Source of the DNA: Desulfobacterium sp.
GTDB lineage: Bacteria > Desulfobacterota > Desulfobacteria > Desulfobacterales > Desulfobacteraceae
Assembly (NCBI GenBank): GCA_030145245.1
Contig: JAQYWC010000001.1
Location: 1 to 64,000, forward strand
Direction of reading: 5' to 3'
Length of the DNA: 64,000 nucleotides
Shown: positions 458 to 10,421 of the stretch, in pieces
How positions within the stretch are numbered: the first letter of the stretch is position 1
Layout: every line of letters begins with the position of its first letter
Notes under the pieces: model-generated
Told to the model about the DNA's origin: nothing
Database searches by the model: none
What the model saw: only the letters and a program-made list of their open reading frames with translations
Position numbers and translations under genes: made by a program

Positions 458-1480
458 TTACCTTGTTATTTTAATGATGGCGGATAGGCCCCGGTGAAGG
501 GTTTCTATGCACTGTTTTTCCGTTATGCCGAGTCGCTGCCTGTTGCTGACGTCGACTATCCCATCCAGAACCTCCGTTTTTTCCCCATGGCTACCACGTA
601 TCTGAAGATTATATTCTTCGGCCGTTGCATGGAGGAGCGCTTGTTGAGAAAGAAAATTGGGCAAACGAATATGAACCCCGGCCCTCATTCCTGTTCCAAG
701 GTTGGAAGGGCAGGAGGTGAGGTAGCCCAGGTTGGGATCACGGGCAAAGGTCAACCGCTTTTCAAGAAAAGCAAGGGCCCGGGAGAGCCGATCGTAGGTT
801 CCCATAATATCGCCGCCACTGTCCATTGATATGATTCTCAGGTGGTCCTCTTCATTTATCCAGACCGCGAATTTCTCGTCCTTTGACACAAAGATTCCCC
901 TTGAATCGGGCCAGTCCCTGTTGATTCCGGCCGCTTCCATGAATCGGTCTCCCTTTTCAAAGAGCAGGTGCTTTTGGGCGAACCTTTTTCGTCTGGCGTC
1001 GGTCAACTCCCCAAGGGGGTGATAGCTTCCCTCAAGATCGCCTTTCAACTCCAGAAGTGCGTTGACGGTTTGTTCCTCCACTTTGATGCGGGCCGCTGAA
1101 TCGATCAGCGGTGGAAACGGAAGGTCTGCAAGGTTTCTTGCAACGCGGATTCTGAAGGATTGGATATGGCCACAGGAAAGGTCGGAACCGGAAAGAGCTA
1201 TCCTGGATAGGTCAGACCTGTGGATGCGGTCCGCCGGGCAACCGTGGTAAGCTTTGATGACCGGTTTGAAAATTTTGGAAAAAGTTTGGTATGATTCTGC
1301 ATCTCCTGCATAGATACCAATTGAGGAGTCAGGGTTTTGGATGCCTGATCTGATCGCCTGCTCCAGGGTAAATTTGTTTTTTGTGCGTTTTTCTTTGAGA
1401 TCATTAAAAATAGCGGGGGTAAGGTGCTCTTTCACAAGAGAGACCGCTGTTTTGGAAAAAAGGGTGTTGATGTCAGTCAC
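458..1480 (-). CDS. Phosphagen kinase, arginine kinase-like
   Basis: A 340-aa protein, close to the usual length of a monomeric arginine kinase, which reversibly transfers phosphate from ATP to arginine as a cytoplasmic energy buffer. The N-terminal domain carries the short guanidino-specificity loop DSSIGIY (51-57; DSGVGIY in animal arginine kinases) and FKPVIKAYHG. The catalytic domain shows FRIRVARN (109-116), RDWPDSRGIF, NEEDHLR (210-216), CPSNLGT with the reactive Cys257, MRAGVHIRLP, and GEKTE (299-303). Four of the five arginines that hold ADP phosphates in horseshoe crab arginine kinase are recognisable (110, 112, 216, 266); the fifth, in RGTRGEHTE, is His298 here. The start codon is GTG at 1480 with aagga 10 bases upstream. 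The gene stands alone between palindromic repeats. Such kinases are known in a few bacteria, including sulfate reducers. Family certain; arginine as substrate is inferred from the loop. Confidence 0.93.
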   Translation of the reverse strand: MTDINTLFSKTAVSLVKEHLTPAIFNDLKEKRTKNKFTLEQAIRSGIQNPDSSIGIYAGDAESYQTFSKIFKPVIKAYHGCPADRIHRSDLSRIALSGSDLSCGHIQSFRIRVARNLADLPFPPLIDSAARIKVEEQTVNALLELKGDLEGSYHPLGELTDARRKRFAQKHLLFEKGDRFMEAAGINRDWPDSRGIFVSKDEKFAVWINEEDHLRIISMDSGGDIMGTYDRLSRALAFLEKRLTFARDPNLGYLTSCPSNLGTGMRAGVHIRLPNFLSQQALLHATAEEYNLQIRGSHGEKTEVLDGIVDVSNRQRLGITEKQCIETLHRGLSAIIKITR

Positions 1481-1957: not shown

Positions 1958-2572
1958 ATGTCTACAGAATCCAGATTCGCCGAACTCAAGGAGAGGGAGA
2001 GGGAGGCAAGAAAACAGATCATTATTGAATCTGCTCTGTCACTTTTTGCAAAAAAACCTTTTTATGACGTAGGGATGAGGGATGTCGCAGACGAGGCAGG
2101 TGTCTCTCCGGCAACGCTCTATCGCTATTTCCCAAGCCAGGAAGACCTTTTCATCGAAGCTTTTCTCCAGGATATCTCTGCGGTCAGTTCCAATTTCAAG
2201 TCCATGGTTAAGAGCGATAAACCGGCGACCATTGAGGCTTTTGCTCTGGCCTATGTGGATCACCTTTTCCAGAACGAATCCACTTTTCAGATGATGACTT
2301 ATCTCATGCTCAAGGATAATCTTGCAAATCCGGCCATGGGCAAGTTTGATTCGGTTACCAAGATCTTTTTTGACGGATTTTCTGAGCTCCTTGAGCGCCA
2401 TGGTGTTACAAAGGATATACGGATTTACTCCCACTCTTTCATCGCCTCAATGACCGGAATTATCATGACCTTCAGGAATCACCCTATCAAGAAAAAAGAG
2501 ACAATCCGGGAGCACATCCTTCGGCTAACCAGTATCACAGCAGAATTGTATCGCAAAGAGCTTCTTAATTAG
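1958..2572 (+). CDS. TetR/AcrR family transcriptional regulator
   Basis: A 204-aa protein whose N-terminal 60 residues form the TetR DNA-binding domain: QIIIESALSLFAKKPFYDVG, then VADEAGVSPATLYRYFPSQE (turn and recognition helix). The rest is the variable ligand-binding domain, so the inducer cannot be predicted. The start is placed at ATG 1958 because caggagg lies 8 bases upstream; an in-frame ATG at 1898 has no such site. No obvious target is adjacent; the moxR/bat operon begins 135 bases downstream on the same strand. Confidence 0.9.
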   Translation: MSTESRFAELKEREREARKQIIIESALSLFAKKPFYDVGMRDVADEAGVSPATLYRYFPSQEDLFIEAFLQDISAVSSNFKSMVKSDKPATIEAFALAYVDHLFQNESTFQMMTYLMLKDNLANPAMGKFDSVTKIFFDGFSELLERHGVTKDIRIYSHSFIASMTGIIMTFRNHPIKKKETIREHILRLTSITAELYRKELLN

Positions 2573-2707: not shown

Positions 2708-3682
2708 ATGGAGCAGCTGAAAAGAGACATTGAAGAGCAGCATCTGCTGATTAGCAGGATACGAAAAGAGATAGCAAAAGAGCTTGTCGGGCAGCAGAAA
2801 CTTGTGGATGGACTCCTGGCAGGTGTTTTGTCAGGGGGGCATGTCCTCATCGAGGGTGTTCCCGGGCTTGCAAAGACCAGCGCGGTAAAAGCCCTTGCCT
2901 CAACCATACAGGCAAACTTCAAACGGATCCAGTTCACGCCGGATCTCCTGCCGGCAGACCTTATCGGAACCGAGATATACAGACCCAAGGCCGGAGATTT
3001 TGTGACGAGAAAAGGTCCGCTTTTCAACAACATCATCCTTGCCGACGAGATTAACAGGGCTCCCTCCAAGGTTCAGTCCGCCCTGCTGGAATCCATGCAG
3101 GAGAACCAGGTGACCATCGGTGATACCACCTACGAGCTTCCAAAGCCATTTCTTGTTCTTGCCACCCAGAACCCCATCGAGCAGGAGGGGACCTACCAGC
3201 TTCCCGAGGCCCAGGTGGATCGGTTCATGCTCAAGATCCTCATCGACTACCCGGACAGGACCCAGGAACTTGAAATCCTGAAAAAATCCGGGTTCACCAC
3301 CAGTGACCCCATTCAGCCTGTCATTGATCCAGGCCAGCTTGGGGAGATGTCACGGCTGGTTAAAGAGATCTATGTTGATGATAAACTGAAAGAGTATATT
3401 GTTGATATTGTCCTGGCAACCCGGCAGCCCGAAAAATACGGCATGGACATTGGCGAGTATGTTGACTTCGGTGCATCCCCAAGGGCTACGATCTCTCTGG
3501 CCCAGGTGGCAAGGGTGACCGCTTTTCTCCAGGGCAGGGCTTATGTGACTCCCCAGGATATTAAAATCGCTGCTCCCGATGTGCTGCGCCACCGGATTAT
3601 TCTCTCCTTCGAGGCTGAAGCCGAGGATGTTTCCACTGATGAGATCATCAAAGCCGTGTTTGATTCCGTTGAGGTCCCTTAG
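2708..3682 (+). CDS. MoxR-family AAA+ ATPase
   Basis: A 324-aa MoxR ATPase, thought to act as a chaperone that helps assemble or activate von Willebrand factor A (vWA) proteins. Walker A is GVPGLAKTS (50-58), Walker B ILADEIN (110-116), followed by NRAPSKVQSALLESMQE, sensor 1 in ATQNPIEQEGTYQLPEAQ and the C-terminal lid. The start is ATG 2708 with gaggt just upstream. It is the first gene of a colinear run (2708-10421) with a DUF58 protein and Bat proteins, the usual context of the MoxR proper subfamily. Bacteroides Bat proteins have been linked to oxygen tolerance; the substrate here is unknown. Confidence 0.95.
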   Translation: MEQLKRDIEEQHLLISRIRKEIAKELVGQQKLVDGLLAGVLSGGHVLIEGVPGLAKTSAVKALASTIQANFKRIQFTPDLLPADLIGTEIYRPKAGDFVTRKGPLFNNIILADEINRAPSKVQSALLESMQENQVTIGDTTYELPKPFLVLATQNPIEQEGTYQLPEAQVDRFMLKILIDYPDRTQELEILKKSGFTTSDPIQPVIDPGQLGEMSRLVKEIYVDDKLKEYIVDIVLATRQPEKYGMDIGEYVDFGASPRATISLAQVARVTAFLQGRAYVTPQDIKIAAPDVLRHRIILSFEAEAEDVSTDEIIKAVFDSVEVP

Positions 3683-3689
3683 AAAATAA

Positions 3690-4568
3690 ATGATTCCAAG
3701 GGAGATAATAAAAAAAATAAAGCGGATCCACATCAAGAGCAGCCGCTCGGTCAACTCAATCATGGCGGGTCAGTACCGCTCCGTATTCAAGGGTTCGGGC
3801 ATTGAGTTTGAAGAGGTGAGGGAGTACAGTCCCGGGGACGAGATAAAGGCCATTGACTGGAAAGTGTCGGCAAGGCTCGGCAGGCCGTTTATTAAGCTCT
3901 ACAGGGAGGAGCGCGAAAGCGTGGTCATGCTTCTCATCGATATGAGTGCCTCCCAGGGGTTTGGAACTTTTTCCGGCCTGAAGCTTGAAAAGGCGGCCGA
4001 GGTTGCATCGGTCCTCGCTTTTTCCGCCATCAGGAATAACGACAAGGTGGGGGTGATATTTTTCACCGATCGCGTTGAGAAATATATTCCTCCCCAGAAG
4101 GGGACGGGGCACATCTGGAGGCTGATCAAGGAAATTTTCACCTTTGTTCCCGAGGGAAAGGGAACCTGCCTTGCATCTTCCCTGGATTTCCTAGCCAAAG
4201 TCGCAAGAAAGAAAACCACAACCTTTATTCTTTCCGATTTCCTGGACTCCGGCTTCCAGAAGAGCCTCAGGACTGCTCTACAGCGCCATGAGCTGATATC
4301 TGTTCTCCTTTATGACGAGGGCGATTTTCACCTTCCTGAACAGGGGATTGTCAGTCTGTCCTGTTTTGAGACCGGAAAAGAACTGCTCCTGGATGCCTCG
4401 GATAAACGCACCCGAGCCTACTATAAGGGTCGGAAAAAGGCCCAGCACAACTCCATCCTTGAGATTCTCAAGAAGAATGGGGTTGATCTCGTTGAGATGG
4501 GAACGGGTGCGTCGGTCTCTGACTCCCTTCAGCGCTATTTCAGGAACAGAGAGCGGAGGAAACTATAG
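3690..4568 (+). CDS. DUF58 domain protein (vWA-like), MoxR partner
   Basis: A 292-aa DUF58 protein. The signature EYSPGDEIKAIDWKVSARLG spans about 45-64 and is followed by FIKLYREERE. A vWA-like fold begins at LLIDMSASQG, where D84-x-S-x-S looks like a metal-ion-dependent adhesion site. No membrane segment is seen, so the protein is probably cytoplasmic or peripheral. It starts 7 bases after moxR and its stop abuts the next start, indicating translational coupling. In this gene family DUF58 proteins are taken to be MoxR clients; the molecular role is unproven. Confidence 0.92.
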   Translation: MIPREIIKKIKRIHIKSSRSVNSIMAGQYRSVFKGSGIEFEEVREYSPGDEIKAIDWKVSARLGRPFIKLYREERESVVMLLIDMSASQGFGTFSGLKLEKAAEVASVLAFSAIRNNDKVGVIFFTDRVEKYIPPQKGTGHIWRLIKEIFTFVPEGKGTCLASSLDFLAKVARKKTTTFILSDFLDSGFQKSLRTALQRHELISVLLYDEGDFHLPEQGIVSLSCFETGKELLLDASDKRTRAYYKGRKKAQHNSILEILKKNGVDLVEMGTGASVSDSLQRYFRNRERRKL

Positions 4569-5117
4569 ATGCAGGATATCCATGACATCCGACCCCCGGT
4601 GCAGGTGGGGATGGATCCCCTTCTCCTCAGGATTGCGCTTATTCTGTTGATCCTGTTTGTCCTGGGATGTGTTGGTTTTCTTCTTTATCGCTATCTGAAG
4701 AGGCGAAAGGCCGGGAACACAGCAGATGTTCTGCTGCTTCCCTTGCCGCTTCCGCCTGATGAGGCGGCCCTGAAGGCCCTGGAAGCCCTTGGGGATCTCA
4801 TGGCAAGGGCGCCAAGGCTCTATTACTTCAGGCTTACCGGGATAGTGAAACGTTTCATTGGAAAACAATTTCACCTGGGGGCACCCGAGATGACCACCCA
4901 GGAGTTTGTTCTGTCCATCAGGTCCCTGGGGATAGACAAGGGGCTTCTGGCCGATGCCAGGGAGTTCCTGCTCTTTTCAGACACCATCAAGTATGCCGGA
5001 GAGGATCCGTCACCATCAATGATGCAGGGGCATGAAGCGTTTGTCAGAAAGTTTATTGTCACGGTTGCTTCAACAGACCAGGAAGATGGCCCGAAGAGGG
5101 AGGATCACGATGTTTAG
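4569..5117 (+). CDS. Membrane-anchored bat-operon protein (DUF4381-like)
   Basis: A 182-aa protein with one strong N-terminal membrane segment (about 19-45, IALILLILFVLGCVGFLLY) followed by basic residues, so the C-terminal domain should be cytoplasmic. Length, position between the DUF58 and BatA genes and the helix-rich tail fit the DUF4381 proteins common in this operon type; that is a context-based call. The start codon directly follows the upstream stop and the last 8 bases overlap the batA start, so it belongs to a tightly coupled operon. Function unknown. Confidence 0.75.
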   Translation: MQDIHDIRPPVQVGMDPLLLRIALILLILFVLGCVGFLLYRYLKRRKAGNTADVLLLPLPLPPDEAALKALEALGDLMARAPRLYYFRLTGIVKRFIGKQFHLGAPEMTTQEFVLSIRSLGIDKGLLADAREFLLFSDTIKYAGEDPSPSMMQGHEAFVRKFIVTVASTDQEDGPKREDHDV

Positions 5118-6108
5118 GTTCGCTTCTCCGGTTTTTCTTGCTCTGCTGGCCGTCGTTCCCCTGCTGCTCCTGTTTCGGGCAAGGAATTCGAAAAACGTGA
5201 GTGTCAGAACCTCCGATCTGTCGTGGTTGAAAGATTCGCCGGTTACGTTGTTTCTACTTGTTTCCCGGGTTCTTCCCCTAATCAAGTATTGCGGTCTCGT
5301 TTTTTTGATCATTGCCCTGGCAAGGCCCCAGTGGGGCACCAAAAAGATGAACGTCAAGACTGAAGGGATCAACATCATTCTTGCCCTGGACCTTTCCGAG
5401 AGCATGGCCGCCCTTGACTTTAAGCTCGATGGTAGCATTGTCACCCGCCTGGATGCGGTGAAAAGCGTGGTCAAGGAGTTCATTATGAAGCGGGATGGTG
5501 ACAGGATCGGCATGGTGGTTTTCGGCTCCCAGGCCTTTACCCAGCTTCCCCTGACCCGCGACTATGAAACCCTCTCCTTTGTGTTGGACAGGCTGAAGAT
5601 AGGGGCCGCAGGTCCCAGCACCGCCATTGGCGATGCCATTGGGATCTCCTTGAAGCGGCTTGAAGACATTGAGAGTAAATCCAATATCATCATTCTTTTG
5701 ACAGACGGAAAGAGCAACAGCGGAGAGATCTCTCCCACGGCTGCCGCCGACATCGCAAATCAGCGGAATGTAAAGGTCTATACCGTGGGGGTGGGGCAGA
5801 AGGGAAAGGCACCATTTTTGGTGAACGATCCCCTGTTCGGGGAGAGGTATGTCTACCAGCGGGTGGACATGGACCATGAAACCCTGAAGAATATTGCCGG
5901 TACGACCCAGGGAGAGTTCTTCGCCGCCGGCGACACCGAGTCCCTGGGAAAGATCTATGACATCATCGACTCCCTGGAGAAAACCGAGGTGGAGGTCAAG
6001 GCCTGGGCTGAGTATGATGACCTTTACGTCTGGTTTGTGGTGGCAGGCGCGGTCCTTCTCGGCGTAACCGTTCTTCTTTCAAATACACGACTGCTAAGGA
6101 TTCCGTAA
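5110..6108 (+). CDS. batA: BatA-like vWA membrane protein
   Basis: A 332-aa protein with hydrophobic segments at about 5-22 and 46-72, a vWA domain from about 86, and a C-terminal membrane segment at about 308-328. The metal site DLSES starts at D94, and LLTDGKSNSG carries the third metal ligand region. The start is ATG 5110 with gagggagga upstream; an in-frame start at 5032 would run deep into the preceding gene. Bat proteins are thought to form an inner-membrane vWA complex worked on by MoxR. The next gene encodes a second vWA protein of similar topology. Confidence 0.9.
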   Translation: MFRFASPVFLALLAVVPLLLLFRARNSKNVSVRTSDLSWLKDSPVTLFLLVSRVLPLIKYCGLVFLIIALARPQWGTKKMNVKTEGINIILALDLSESMAALDFKLDGSIVTRLDAVKSVVKEFIMKRDGDRIGMVVFGSQAFTQLPLTRDYETLSFVLDRLKIGAAGPSTAIGDAIGISLKRLEDIESKSNIIILLTDGKSNSGEISPTAAADIANQRNVKVYTVGVGQKGKAPFLVNDPLFGERYVYQRVDMDHETLKNIAGTTQGEFFAAGDTESLGKIYDIIDSLEKTEVEVKAWAEYDDLYVWFVVAGAVLLGVTVLLSNTRLLRIP

Positions 6109-6113
6109 GCACA

Positions 6114-7949
6114 ATGAAGTTATCCAATCCCCATATGCTCTATCTTGTCTGGGTGGTGCTCCTGCTGGCAGGGGTGATCGTCTATGGTAATAAAAAACGG
6201 GCCAGAATTCTGGGCAGGTTTGCAACGGCAAAGGTCTTTGAGACCATTGCACCCGGAGTGAAAACAAAAAAACGGTTGATTCGCGGGGTGTTGACGACCC
6301 TGTCTCTCGTCTGCCTGGTTATTGCCCTGGCAGGTCCCCTGGTGGGGTTCCGCTGGGAAACGGTTGAACAGAAAGGGGTGGACATCATGATCTGCCTTGA
6401 CCTTTCCAGGAGCATGCTGGCCCAGGATATCAAACCGTCCCGTCTGGAACAGGCAAAGCGTGAGATCTTCGACCTTTTGGGAATGATGAAGTCCGACAGG
6501 GCAGGGCTTGTGGCGTTTGCCGGTAAAGCCATTCTTCAATGTCCCCTTACCATGGACCACGGTGCCTTTAACATTTTTTTGAACGCCCTTGAGCCCGACT
6601 ATCTTCCCGTGGGCGGCACCGACATCGGCGGTGCCATTGACACGGCCCTTTCCGGGTTTGAAAAGGAACTGGAGTCTGAAAAGGCGATCATTCTCATCAC
6701 CGACGGTGAAAATACCTCGGGAGTCCCCCTGGAGGTCGCGAAAAAGGCGGCCAAAGACAATGTCAGGATCTTCTGCATTGGCGTGGGTAGCGAGGATGGA
6801 GCCCCTGTTCCGGACGTCAGCGGCGGTTTTAAGAAGGACGGCCAGGGCCGGATCGTTATTTCAAAGGTTGATGATGCCGGGTTGGAAAAAATTGCAACAA
6901 CGGCCCGGGGGGTGTATGTGCGTTCTGTTGCCGGGGACATGGATCTTGACCGGATTTACGATCAGGAAATCCGGGGCAAGATGGAAAAAAAGACCTTGAA
7001 GAGCGGCAAGCGAAAGGTGTGGGAGAACCGGTTTCAATGGTTCCTCTTTCCGGCCGTTGTGCTGTTTTTGATCGAAACACTGCTCGCAGACAACAGACGG
7101 GGCATCTTTTTTTCCCTTGTTTTTGCATCTGCGGTTCTTGCTTCAACTCCGGAACCCGGTTTTGCCGGTGCTTCCAAAAGCGTTGAAAAGGGGATCGAAG
7201 CTTACCAGGCCGGGGAGTATGAGCAGGCGGAAAAGCATTTCATCGACGCCCAGCTGGACCGGCCCGAGATGGCAGAACTCTATTACAACATCGGAAGCGC
7301 CGCATATAAGAAGGGCGATTATGAAGCTGCCGTTAAAAATTTCACCCGGGCCGGGGAAACCGATGATTCAAATTTTAAAACCCGGGCCATGTACAACCTT
7401 GGAAATGCGTTGTACCGTTCAGGAAAGATTGAAGAGGCTGTAAGGGAATATGAAGAGCTGCTCTCCCTTGCCCCGGAGGACACCGATGCAAAAGAAAATC
7501 TTGAGTTTGTAAAGAAAAAACTTGAGGAGCAGAAAAAACAGCAGAAAGAGAATCAAAACAAAGATCAGCAGAAGGATCAGCAGAAGGATCAGCAGCAGGA
7601 AGATAAGCAGAATAAAGATCAGCAGCAGGAAAATAAGCCTGGGGATGACAAGGATCAAAACAGGGGCAAGAATAAAGACAAGCAAGATAACCCGCCGTCT
7701 GATGCAAGTCCCAAAGATTCCAAACCTTCCGAATCCAAGGATAGTCCGGGTGATTCCCAGGACAAGCCGGAAAAACAGGGCGACAGCAAAGAGCAGGCCT
7801 CCCGGCAACCAAACCCGGAAAACGGGCAATCCGGAACCATGGATCAGCAGGCCCAGGCCCGGGAACGAATGCTCAACCGCCTTACGGACAAGCCCGGAAG
7901 AGCCATGATGCCGGCTTACGACAAGGGACATGTTTCCAAGGACTGGTAA
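6114..7949 (+). CDS. batB: BatB-BatC fusion: vWA membrane protein with TPR domain
   Basis: A 611-aa protein. Residues about 1-320 are BatB-like: two N-terminal membrane segments, a vWA domain with DLSRS (metal site D96) and LITDGENTSG, and a membrane segment near 305-322. A second hydrophobic stretch (FFSLVFASAVLAS) with a small-residue tail resembles a signal sequence and is followed by tetratricopeptide repeats (about 350-470), matching BatC. The last 140 residues are a low-complexity tail rich in Gln, Lys and Asp. The arrangement places the TPR part in the periplasm. BatB and BatC are usually separate genes. It starts 5 bases after batA. Confidence 0.9.
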   Translation: MKLSNPHMLYLVWVVLLLAGVIVYGNKKRARILGRFATAKVFETIAPGVKTKKRLIRGVLTTLSLVCLVIALAGPLVGFRWETVEQKGVDIMICLDLSRSMLAQDIKPSRLEQAKREIFDLLGMMKSDRAGLVAFAGKAILQCPLTMDHGAFNIFLNALEPDYLPVGGTDIGGAIDTALSGFEKELESEKAIILITDGENTSGVPLEVAKKAAKDNVRIFCIGVGSEDGAPVPDVSGGFKKDGQGRIVISKVDDAGLEKIATTARGVYVRSVAGDMDLDRIYDQEIRGKMEKKTLKSGKRKVWENRFQWFLFPAVVLFLIETLLADNRRGIFFSLVFASAVLASTPEPGFAGASKSVEKGIEAYQAGEYEQAEKHFIDAQLDRPEMAELYYNIGSAAYKKGDYEAAVKNFTRAGETDDSNFKTRAMYNLGNALYRSGKIEEAVREYEELLSLAPEDTDAKENLEFVKKKLEEQKKQQKENQNKDQQKDQQKDQQQEDKQNKDQQQENKPGDDKDQNRGKNKDKQDNPPSDASPKDSKPSESKDSPGDSQDKPEKQGDSKEQASRQPNPENGQSGTMDQQAQARERMLNRLTDKPGRAMMPAYDKGHVSKDW

Positions 7950-7958
7950 AGGATAAAG

Positions 7959-10421
7959 ATGAAACGATTGCTATTTTTTGCATTGATCCTGGTCGCAATT
8001 CCCGTCCAGGTGTTTGGGTTTACCGCAACCGCAAGGGTCGACAGAAACCGGATTTCCGAAGGCGAATCCCTGACCTTAAGGGTTGTTGTTCAGGGCGGCG
8101 AGGCTGTTGTTGACACCTCGGTTATAACCGATTTCAAGGTGATTCCCAGGGGGACCAGCACCAGTGTCAGAATCATCAACGGGGAGTATTCAAAGAACGT
8201 TACCCATCAATATGTCCTTCTTCCACGGGGGCAGGGAGGTTTAACCATTCCGCCACTGCCGGTGACCCTTGACGGGGAGCTCGTCCATACCAGGGCAATC
8301 AATGTTCAGGTGGGCAAGCGTGCCGCAACAGACGACCGTGCCGGGGATGTGTTTGTCAGGGCCACCCTGTCCCATGTGACCCTGGTTCCCGGCCAGCAGG
8401 CGATTTACACCTTCAGGCTCTACAGCGCTGTTCAGATCTCCAATGCAAGGCTTCAGCAGCCAAGGTTCAACGGATTTTCTGCCAAGGAGGCGGGGAAGCG
8501 GGAGAACTATGGAAAGGTGATCAACGGCAGGTCCTATGAGGTTACACAGATTACCTATGTTCTCATGGCCGAAAAAGAGGGGGATGTTGAGATTGAACCT
8601 GCGGTGGTGACCTGTGATCTTCCCGTTGCCGATTCCAGGGATCCTCTGGGCGACCCGTTCTTTGGCAACCGTTTCTTTTCCATGGGGCGGCACGAAACCA
8701 GGCGCTTTGCCACGGAGTCGTTCAAGGTAAAGGTCAACCCCATGCCGGCTTATAAGGGGTCCGGTCGGTTTTCCGGCCTTGTCGGCCGTTTCAGTCTGGG
8801 GGCCGGGGTGGATCGTGACACCGTGACAAGCGGCGAGTCCGTGACCCTCACCCTTACGGTCTCAGGGACGGGGAACATCATGGATGCCCAGGCTCCGGAG
8901 ATCCGTGTGCCGGACTCCTTCAAAAGCTATGATGATGTTCCGGAAGAGAAAATAATCCTCACCCGGGATGGGTTCCAGGGGGACAAGATATTTAAGCGGG
9001 CCCTGGTGCCGGTGGCACCGGGCAACTTTGTTCTTGAACCGTTGGAGTTGTGCTATTTTAACACGGATACGGGGGCCTATGAAACGGTGTCAACACCCTC
9101 TCTCAAACTCTCTGTAAAGCCGTCTGGAAAGAATGGAACGGTTCCCCAATCTCCTGTAACCGATGGCGGAAAGGCCAGCGTTGCGAAACAGGCGGTTGAA
9201 TTCACCGGGGACGATATCCTCGCCCTCAAGGAGGGAGCCAATGTGCTGGTCCCCCATCGTGTGGTTCCCTTGCCCCTCTTCCTGACGATCCTGGTTCTTT
9301 TATCCGTTTTGTTACTGGTTTTCAGGGCAGTGATGCTTTTCGGGAAAAAGGAGGAGTCTGCTTCCGCTCTTATGGAAAAACGGGCAAAAAACTGCCTTAA
9401 AATGGCTGAATCCAAAAATATTTCCCAGGAAGATTTTTTCCGAAATCTTTACACAGCTCTTGTCTCAAGGGTGCTGGCCCGGGGAAGCGTCTCCGGAGAG
9501 ACCCTTACAGCAAGGGAGGTTTATGATATTTTATCCAGGGCAGGTCATGGTGAGGAAGAGATAAAGGAGGCGACAGCCATGCTCAACGACATCGAATCCG
9601 CACGATACGGCGGCGCATCCTTTGACAGGGCCATGAAAAACGATCTGCTCATGCGGGCAAAGCGTGTTGTTAAAACCCTTGGTATCACATTGGTGTGTTT
9701 GGGACTTTTTTCTGCCATGCCAGCCAAGGGAAGGGCTGATGATTCCGGAACCCTGTTCCTGGAGGGGATCAATCTCTACAAGGCCGGGCAGTTTCAAGGT
9801 GCTGCCGCTAAATTTGAGCGGGTTGCAGACAATGGCATCAAAAACGGCGAACTTTACTACAATATCGCCAACGCCCGGCTAAAGGCAGGCGAGGTCGGTC
9901 CTGCCATCCTCTGGTATGAGAGGGCGGTAAAGCTCATTCCCCTTGATCCCGATCTCAAGTACAACCTTGACTATGCCAAAGGGCTTGTGGCCGATGAAAT
10001 CGCAGAAAAGACCATGGATATTTCCGGGCTCCTCTTTTTCTGGGAAAAGTATCTGCCGTCATGGCTGGTTCAGTATGGTGCTCTTTTATTATGGTTCGGG
10101 TTTGTGCTCCACACAGGGGTTCGCATGGCCCGGAAAAAACAGGTCTTCACCCCTGCCGGAGCAGTACTGTTTGTTGCCTCCCTTATCATCATGGCCACGG
10201 CTTTTTTCGACTACTATCAGCAATCCTCAGATTCCCATGCCGTTATCCTGGCTGATGAGGCCTCCATCCGGTCCGGTTTCTCGGACGATGCCACCGAACT
10301 TTTCGTCCTCCACGCAGGAACAAAGGTGAGGGTGGAAAGAAGGGAGGGTGAATTTTTGAGGATCGCATTCTCCAAGGATAAGGTTGGCTGGATAAGGGCT
10401 ACCGCGGCAGGGATCATCTGA
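7959..10421 (+). CDS. batD: BatD-BatE fusion: periplasmic BatD domain, TPR and SH3-like domain
   Basis: An 820-aa protein. A signal peptide (about 1-20) leads into BatD-type beta-rich domains (TATARVDRNRISEGESLTLR) and a membrane segment at about 428-450. After a cytoplasmic stretch, residues about 568-590 (TLGITLVCLGLFSAMPAKGR) look like a second signal peptide, followed by TPRs (about 595-680), two hydrophobic segments (about 695-745) and a C-terminal SH3b-like domain from about 760 (ending DKVGWIRA). The second half matches BatE, so two ancestral genes appear fused with the internal signal sequence kept. It is the last gene of the operon. Probable role: periplasmic partner of the BatA/BatB vWA proteins. 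Confidence 0.9.
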   Translation: MKRLLFFALILVAIPVQVFGFTATARVDRNRISEGESLTLRVVVQGGEAVVDTSVITDFKVIPRGTSTSVRIINGEYSKNVTHQYVLLPRGQGGLTIPPLPVTLDGELVHTRAINVQVGKRAATDDRAGDVFVRATLSHVTLVPGQQAIYTFRLYSAVQISNARLQQPRFNGFSAKEAGKRENYGKVINGRSYEVTQITYVLMAEKEGDVEIEPAVVTCDLPVADSRDPLGDPFFGNRFFSMGRHETRRFATESFKVKVNPMPAYKGSGRFSGLVGRFSLGAGVDRDTVTSGESVTLTLTVSGTGNIMDAQAPEIRVPDSFKSYDDVPEEKIILTRDGFQGDKIFKRALVPVAPGNFVLEPLELCYFNTDTGAYETVSTPSLKLSVKPSGKNGTVPQSPVTDGGKASVAKQAVEFTGDDILALKEGANVLVPHRVVPLPLFLTILVLLSVLLLVFRAVMLFGKKEESASALMEKRAKNCLKMAESKNISQEDFFRNLYTALVSRVLARGSVSGETLTAREVYDILSRAGHGEEEIKEATAMLNDIESARYGGASFDRAMKNDLLMRAKRVVKTLGITLVCLGLFSAMPAKGRADDSGTLFLEGINLYKAGQFQGAAAKFERVADNGIKNGELYYNIANARLKAGEVGPAILWYERAVKLIPLDPDLKYNLDYAKGLVADEIAEKTMDISGLLFFWEKYLPSWLVQYGALLLWFGFVLHTGVRMARKKQVFTPAGAVLFVASLIIMATAFFDYYQQSSDSHAVILADEASIRSGFSDDATELFVLHAGTKVRVERREGEFLRIAFSKDKVGWIRATAAGII

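Follow-up and report, generated by a model that had tools for sequence, protein, structure and literature searches.

Arginine kinase, which is best known in invertebrates, serves in energy buffering, and an arginine-type specificity loop together with Tyr89 (numbering of the horseshoe crab, Limulus, enzyme) is diagnostic for it. According to a study of the transition state of the Limulus enzyme, the phosphoryl group is held by Arg126, Arg229, Arg309 and Arg330, with Arg312 unmentioned, while Glu225, Glu314 and Cys271 act on the guanidinium (PMC11075012). Bacterial arginine kinases have been in the literature since 2008, with representatives in Desulfotalea psychrophila, Myxococcus xanthus, Moritella and Sulfurovum, and are usually described as sporadic and of debated origin (PMC6429109). 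We liken these four to the enzyme described here by description only, as members of the same class in other lineages. In the literature, we found nothing relevant on arginine kinase in Desulfobacterium autotrophicum or the Desulfobacteraceae.

The window, that is, the whole 64,000-nucleotide stretch of Desulfobacterium DNA analysed here, carries at positions 458-1480 an intact open reading frame encoding a phosphagen kinase of 340 residues with a GTG start. The initial annotation had located this frame correctly without stating its strand, which is the minus strand. A putative ribosome-binding-like site, AAGGA, lies about 10 bases 5' of the GTG on the same strand (1491-1495), as judged from its spacing. 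The protein matched both domains of the superfamily well over their cut-offs: PF02807 (E 3.6e-27, residues 13-76) and the catalytic PF00217 (E 1.4e-68, residues 133-338). The gene is present as a single copy in the 6.4-Mb genome, and a second, McsB-like gene was not found there. Comparison with the PDB gave arginine kinases as the closest solved structures, headed by 4rf6, with Limulus 1m15 also ranking near the top. Together with the domain content, this upholds the assignment of the protein as a bacterial arginine kinase.

Alignment with Limulus arginine kinase (PDB 1m15 and others) showed 138 identities over 339 aligned residues. Common to the two proteins are all phosphate-binding arginines, both catalytic glutamates, the reactive cysteine and the arginine-type loop. 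Limulus Arg124, Arg126, Arg229, Arg280 and Arg309 correspond to Arg110, Arg112, Arg215, Arg266 and Arg295 here, Arg330 to Arg316, Glu225 and Glu314 to Glu211 and Glu300, and Cys271 to Cys257, the reactive cysteine already recognised in the initial annotation. The equivalents of Asn274, Ser63, Tyr68 and Asp62 are also kept. The guanidine-specificity loop DSSIGIY, likewise recognised before, spans residues 51-57 (Asp51-Ser52-Ser53-Ile54-Gly55-Ile56-Tyr57; 1310-1330, minus strand) and aligns with the Limulus loop; with Tyr78 at the position of Tyr89, the protein carries both arginine-kinase diagnostics. The window protein differs from the Limulus enzyme in having His298 for Arg312, Lys301 for His315 and a shorter N-terminus. 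The best total PDB match, 4rf6, also has His at the Limulus 312 column, in both of its domains, but unlike the window protein it consists of two fused kinase units and has His, not Lys, after the catalytic glutamate.

The flexible loop had been given a different reading in the initial annotation: only four of the five phosphate-binding arginines would remain, Arg309 having become His298, so that either affinity is changed or the neighbouring Lys301 compensates. The loop is indeed RGSHGEKTE here against RGTRGEHTE in Limulus. However, in the numbered Limulus PDB sequence, residue 309 ends the segment FNLQVR and is followed by G310, T311, R312, G313 and E314. The RGTRGEH motif thus opens with Arg309, and the window protein retains this residue as Arg295 (codon 596-598, minus strand); His298 (587-589) occupies the column of Arg312, three residues further on, and all five arginines are in place. 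We extended the alignment to 65 proteins of the window organism's family and 11 homologues from outside it. Nearly all catalytic and ligand residues were invariant in this set, and the 309 column was Arg in each sequence covering it. Column 312, on the other hand, varies freely: family members have Gly (20), Arg (8), Gln (8), Ala (5), His, Ser or Lys (4 each), Leu (3), Asp, Cys or Phe (2 each), Asn or Glu (1 each), 13 different residues that place the column at entropy rank 19 of 330. The same His is found in both domains of 4rf6, in domain 1 of the taurocyamine kinase 4wo8 and in nine other bacterial homologues, a recurrence that the initial annotation had itself named as speaking against its proposal, here seen at the level of sequence. 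With Arg309 kept, the column variable and His present in solved kinases, the substitution at 298 is unremarkable. Nor is Lys301 a compensation for the neighbouring His, since Lys also stands at its column in sequences with Gly, Arg or some other residue at 312. We therefore reject the loss of Arg309, a reading whose probability we put close to nil. The claim of novelty attached to it falls with the misnumbering on which it rested, and the residue change singled out is a numbering error.

Two other identities were also weighed. An McsB-type protein-arginine kinase would have the catalytic domain in common with the window protein, and the NCBIfam McsB models do match it weakly, but the score of 128.7 bits is set against a curated cut-off of 500, the protein has the phosphagen-kinase N-terminal domain PF02807, and small-molecule kinases outscore McsB chains by far in the PDB comparison. 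This identity was rejected as extremely improbable. The protein could also be a phosphagen kinase that acts on a guanidine other than arginine (taurocyamine, glycocyamine, lombricine or creatine), as specificity in this superfamily is imperfectly predictable from sequence and the taurocyamine kinase 4wo8 ranks second by total PDB score. That total, however, sums two domains, neither of which has the DSxxGxY loop. Per matched domain, arginine kinases reach 282-306 bits against 227-228 for taurocyamine kinase, with creatine, lombricine and glycocyamine kinases also lower, and no gap is needed to align DSSIGIY with the Limulus loop, while Tyr78 stands at the place of Limulus Tyr89. We consider a preference for another guanidine very unlikely.

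The loop does contain a family-specific change, at a different residue. Lys301 (578-580, minus strand) aligns with Limulus His315, beside the catalytic Glu314. Lys occupies this column in 62 of the 64 family members that cover it, whereas His is found in all 11 bacterial homologues from outside the family and in all five PDB segments inspected. Because it is present whatever stands at 312, Lys301 is best described as a family trait. The change particular to the family is His315 to Lys and not Arg to His; it is also one of the features that we counted against the reading as a functional arginine kinase.

Taken together, the sequence evidence points to an ordinary bacterial arginine kinase and not to a new kind of system. 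We regard it as very probable that the protein is a functional arginine kinase with one kinase unit per chain, most likely buffering ATP in a sulfate reducer that resembles Desulfobacterium. By homology, it would catalyse reversible ATP:L-arginine phosphotransfer, converting MgATP and arginine to phosphoarginine. As in the Limulus enzyme, the guanidinium would be held by Glu211, Glu300 and Cys257 and the phosphates by Arg110, Arg112, Arg215, Arg266, Arg295 and Arg316, with the loop 295-303 closing over the site; His298 would be a loop residue without a conserved role. We infer activity, substrate and physiological role in this way, beside residues, conservation and a distribution that are observed directly. 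The initial description of the locus is thus confirmed in part, and its interpretation partly supported.

Of the 86 genomes of the window organism's family, 69 contained PF02807, spread over 11 of the 14 genera; among the 42 good ones (completeness of 90% or more, contamination of 5% or less), the count was 37. Elsewhere in the class, it was found only in four genomes of one genus, belonging to another family of the same order, and in an even sample of 394 genomes across the phylum, two had it, each a member of the window organism's family. The gene is therefore near-universal in this family and rare elsewhere in the phylum; the initial remark that a few bacteria carry phosphagen kinases was right as to their presence in bacteria and understated how regularly this family has them. 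The nearest named relatives are a Desulfobacterium MAG and records from Desulfocicer, Desulfobacula, Desulfotignum and Desulfamplus. Polaromonas, Rhodoferax and Chloroflexi MAGs (L018, L019, L021 and L017) also yielded phosphagen-kinase homologues, which are divergent (33-40% identity) and sit on long branches apart from the other sequences in the tree. A rooted origin, by transfer from eukaryotes or the reverse, could not be decided from this tree, which was midpoint-rooted and held few animal and no protist sequences.

Upstream of the kinase gene and divergent from it lie a TetR-family regulator (1958-2572, plus strand) and a run encoding, in order, MoxR, DUF58, an unassigned protein and BatA-like, BatB-like/TPR and BatD proteins (2708-10421, plus strand). 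No arginine-metabolism gene was identified among the kinase neighbours. We scored genes upstream of the kinase in opposite orientation, with TetR within 3 kb and MoxR within 5 kb. TetR and/or MoxR was present in 39 of the 48 family loci whose upstream sequence extended to 3.3 kb or more, MoxR within 5 kb in 26 of the 40 reaching 6.5 kb or more, and the arrangement in none of the four loci of the other family. This position is common to genera whose kinases are 44-60% identical, which argues for old vertical inheritance of the kinase in the family. A common neighbourhood alone is no proof of a functional link. The conserved divergent layout had suggested a dedicated link between TetR and the kinase, which we rejected as unsupported because family genomes without a detected kinase still carry close orthologues of this TetR, at about 67-73% identity (G005, G007, G008, G033, G040, G042 and G078; several are incomplete, but G007, G040, G042 and G078 are more than 90% complete), and because TetR is absent from many kinase-bearing genomes of genus g4.

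On its other side, the kinase gene converges with a 5S rRNA gene at the contig start (126-242, plus strand). In an 86%-identical relative (L002/L064), the contig ends beside the kinase in 30 bases identical to the window 5S, so that an rRNA neighbour is common to the two closest genomes; the third genome of the genus, L063, showed no 5S close to its kinase. The kinase gene is also flanked by a perfect palindrome, GGGACAGATTTAAAATCTGTCCCC, at 382-405 and a diverged copy at about 1503-1527, just upstream of the gene. The palindrome core has 38 dispersed copies in the genome, against none for a reversed control pattern, and looks like a REP-like dispersed repeat.

The present analysis removes a false lead, the supposedly lost phosphate ligand. 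Given the sporadic picture of bacterial arginine kinase, its by-products on distribution and neighbourhood could matter modestly. We tentatively propose, as a possibility that we hold with rather less than full conviction and would not yet call probable, that arginine kinase is in this family an old, vertically inherited core gene and not a sporadic acquisition, with the family Lys in place of His315 tuning the reaction. A near-universal gene at a widely shared site would make phosphoarginine energy buffering testable in culturable sulfate reducers.
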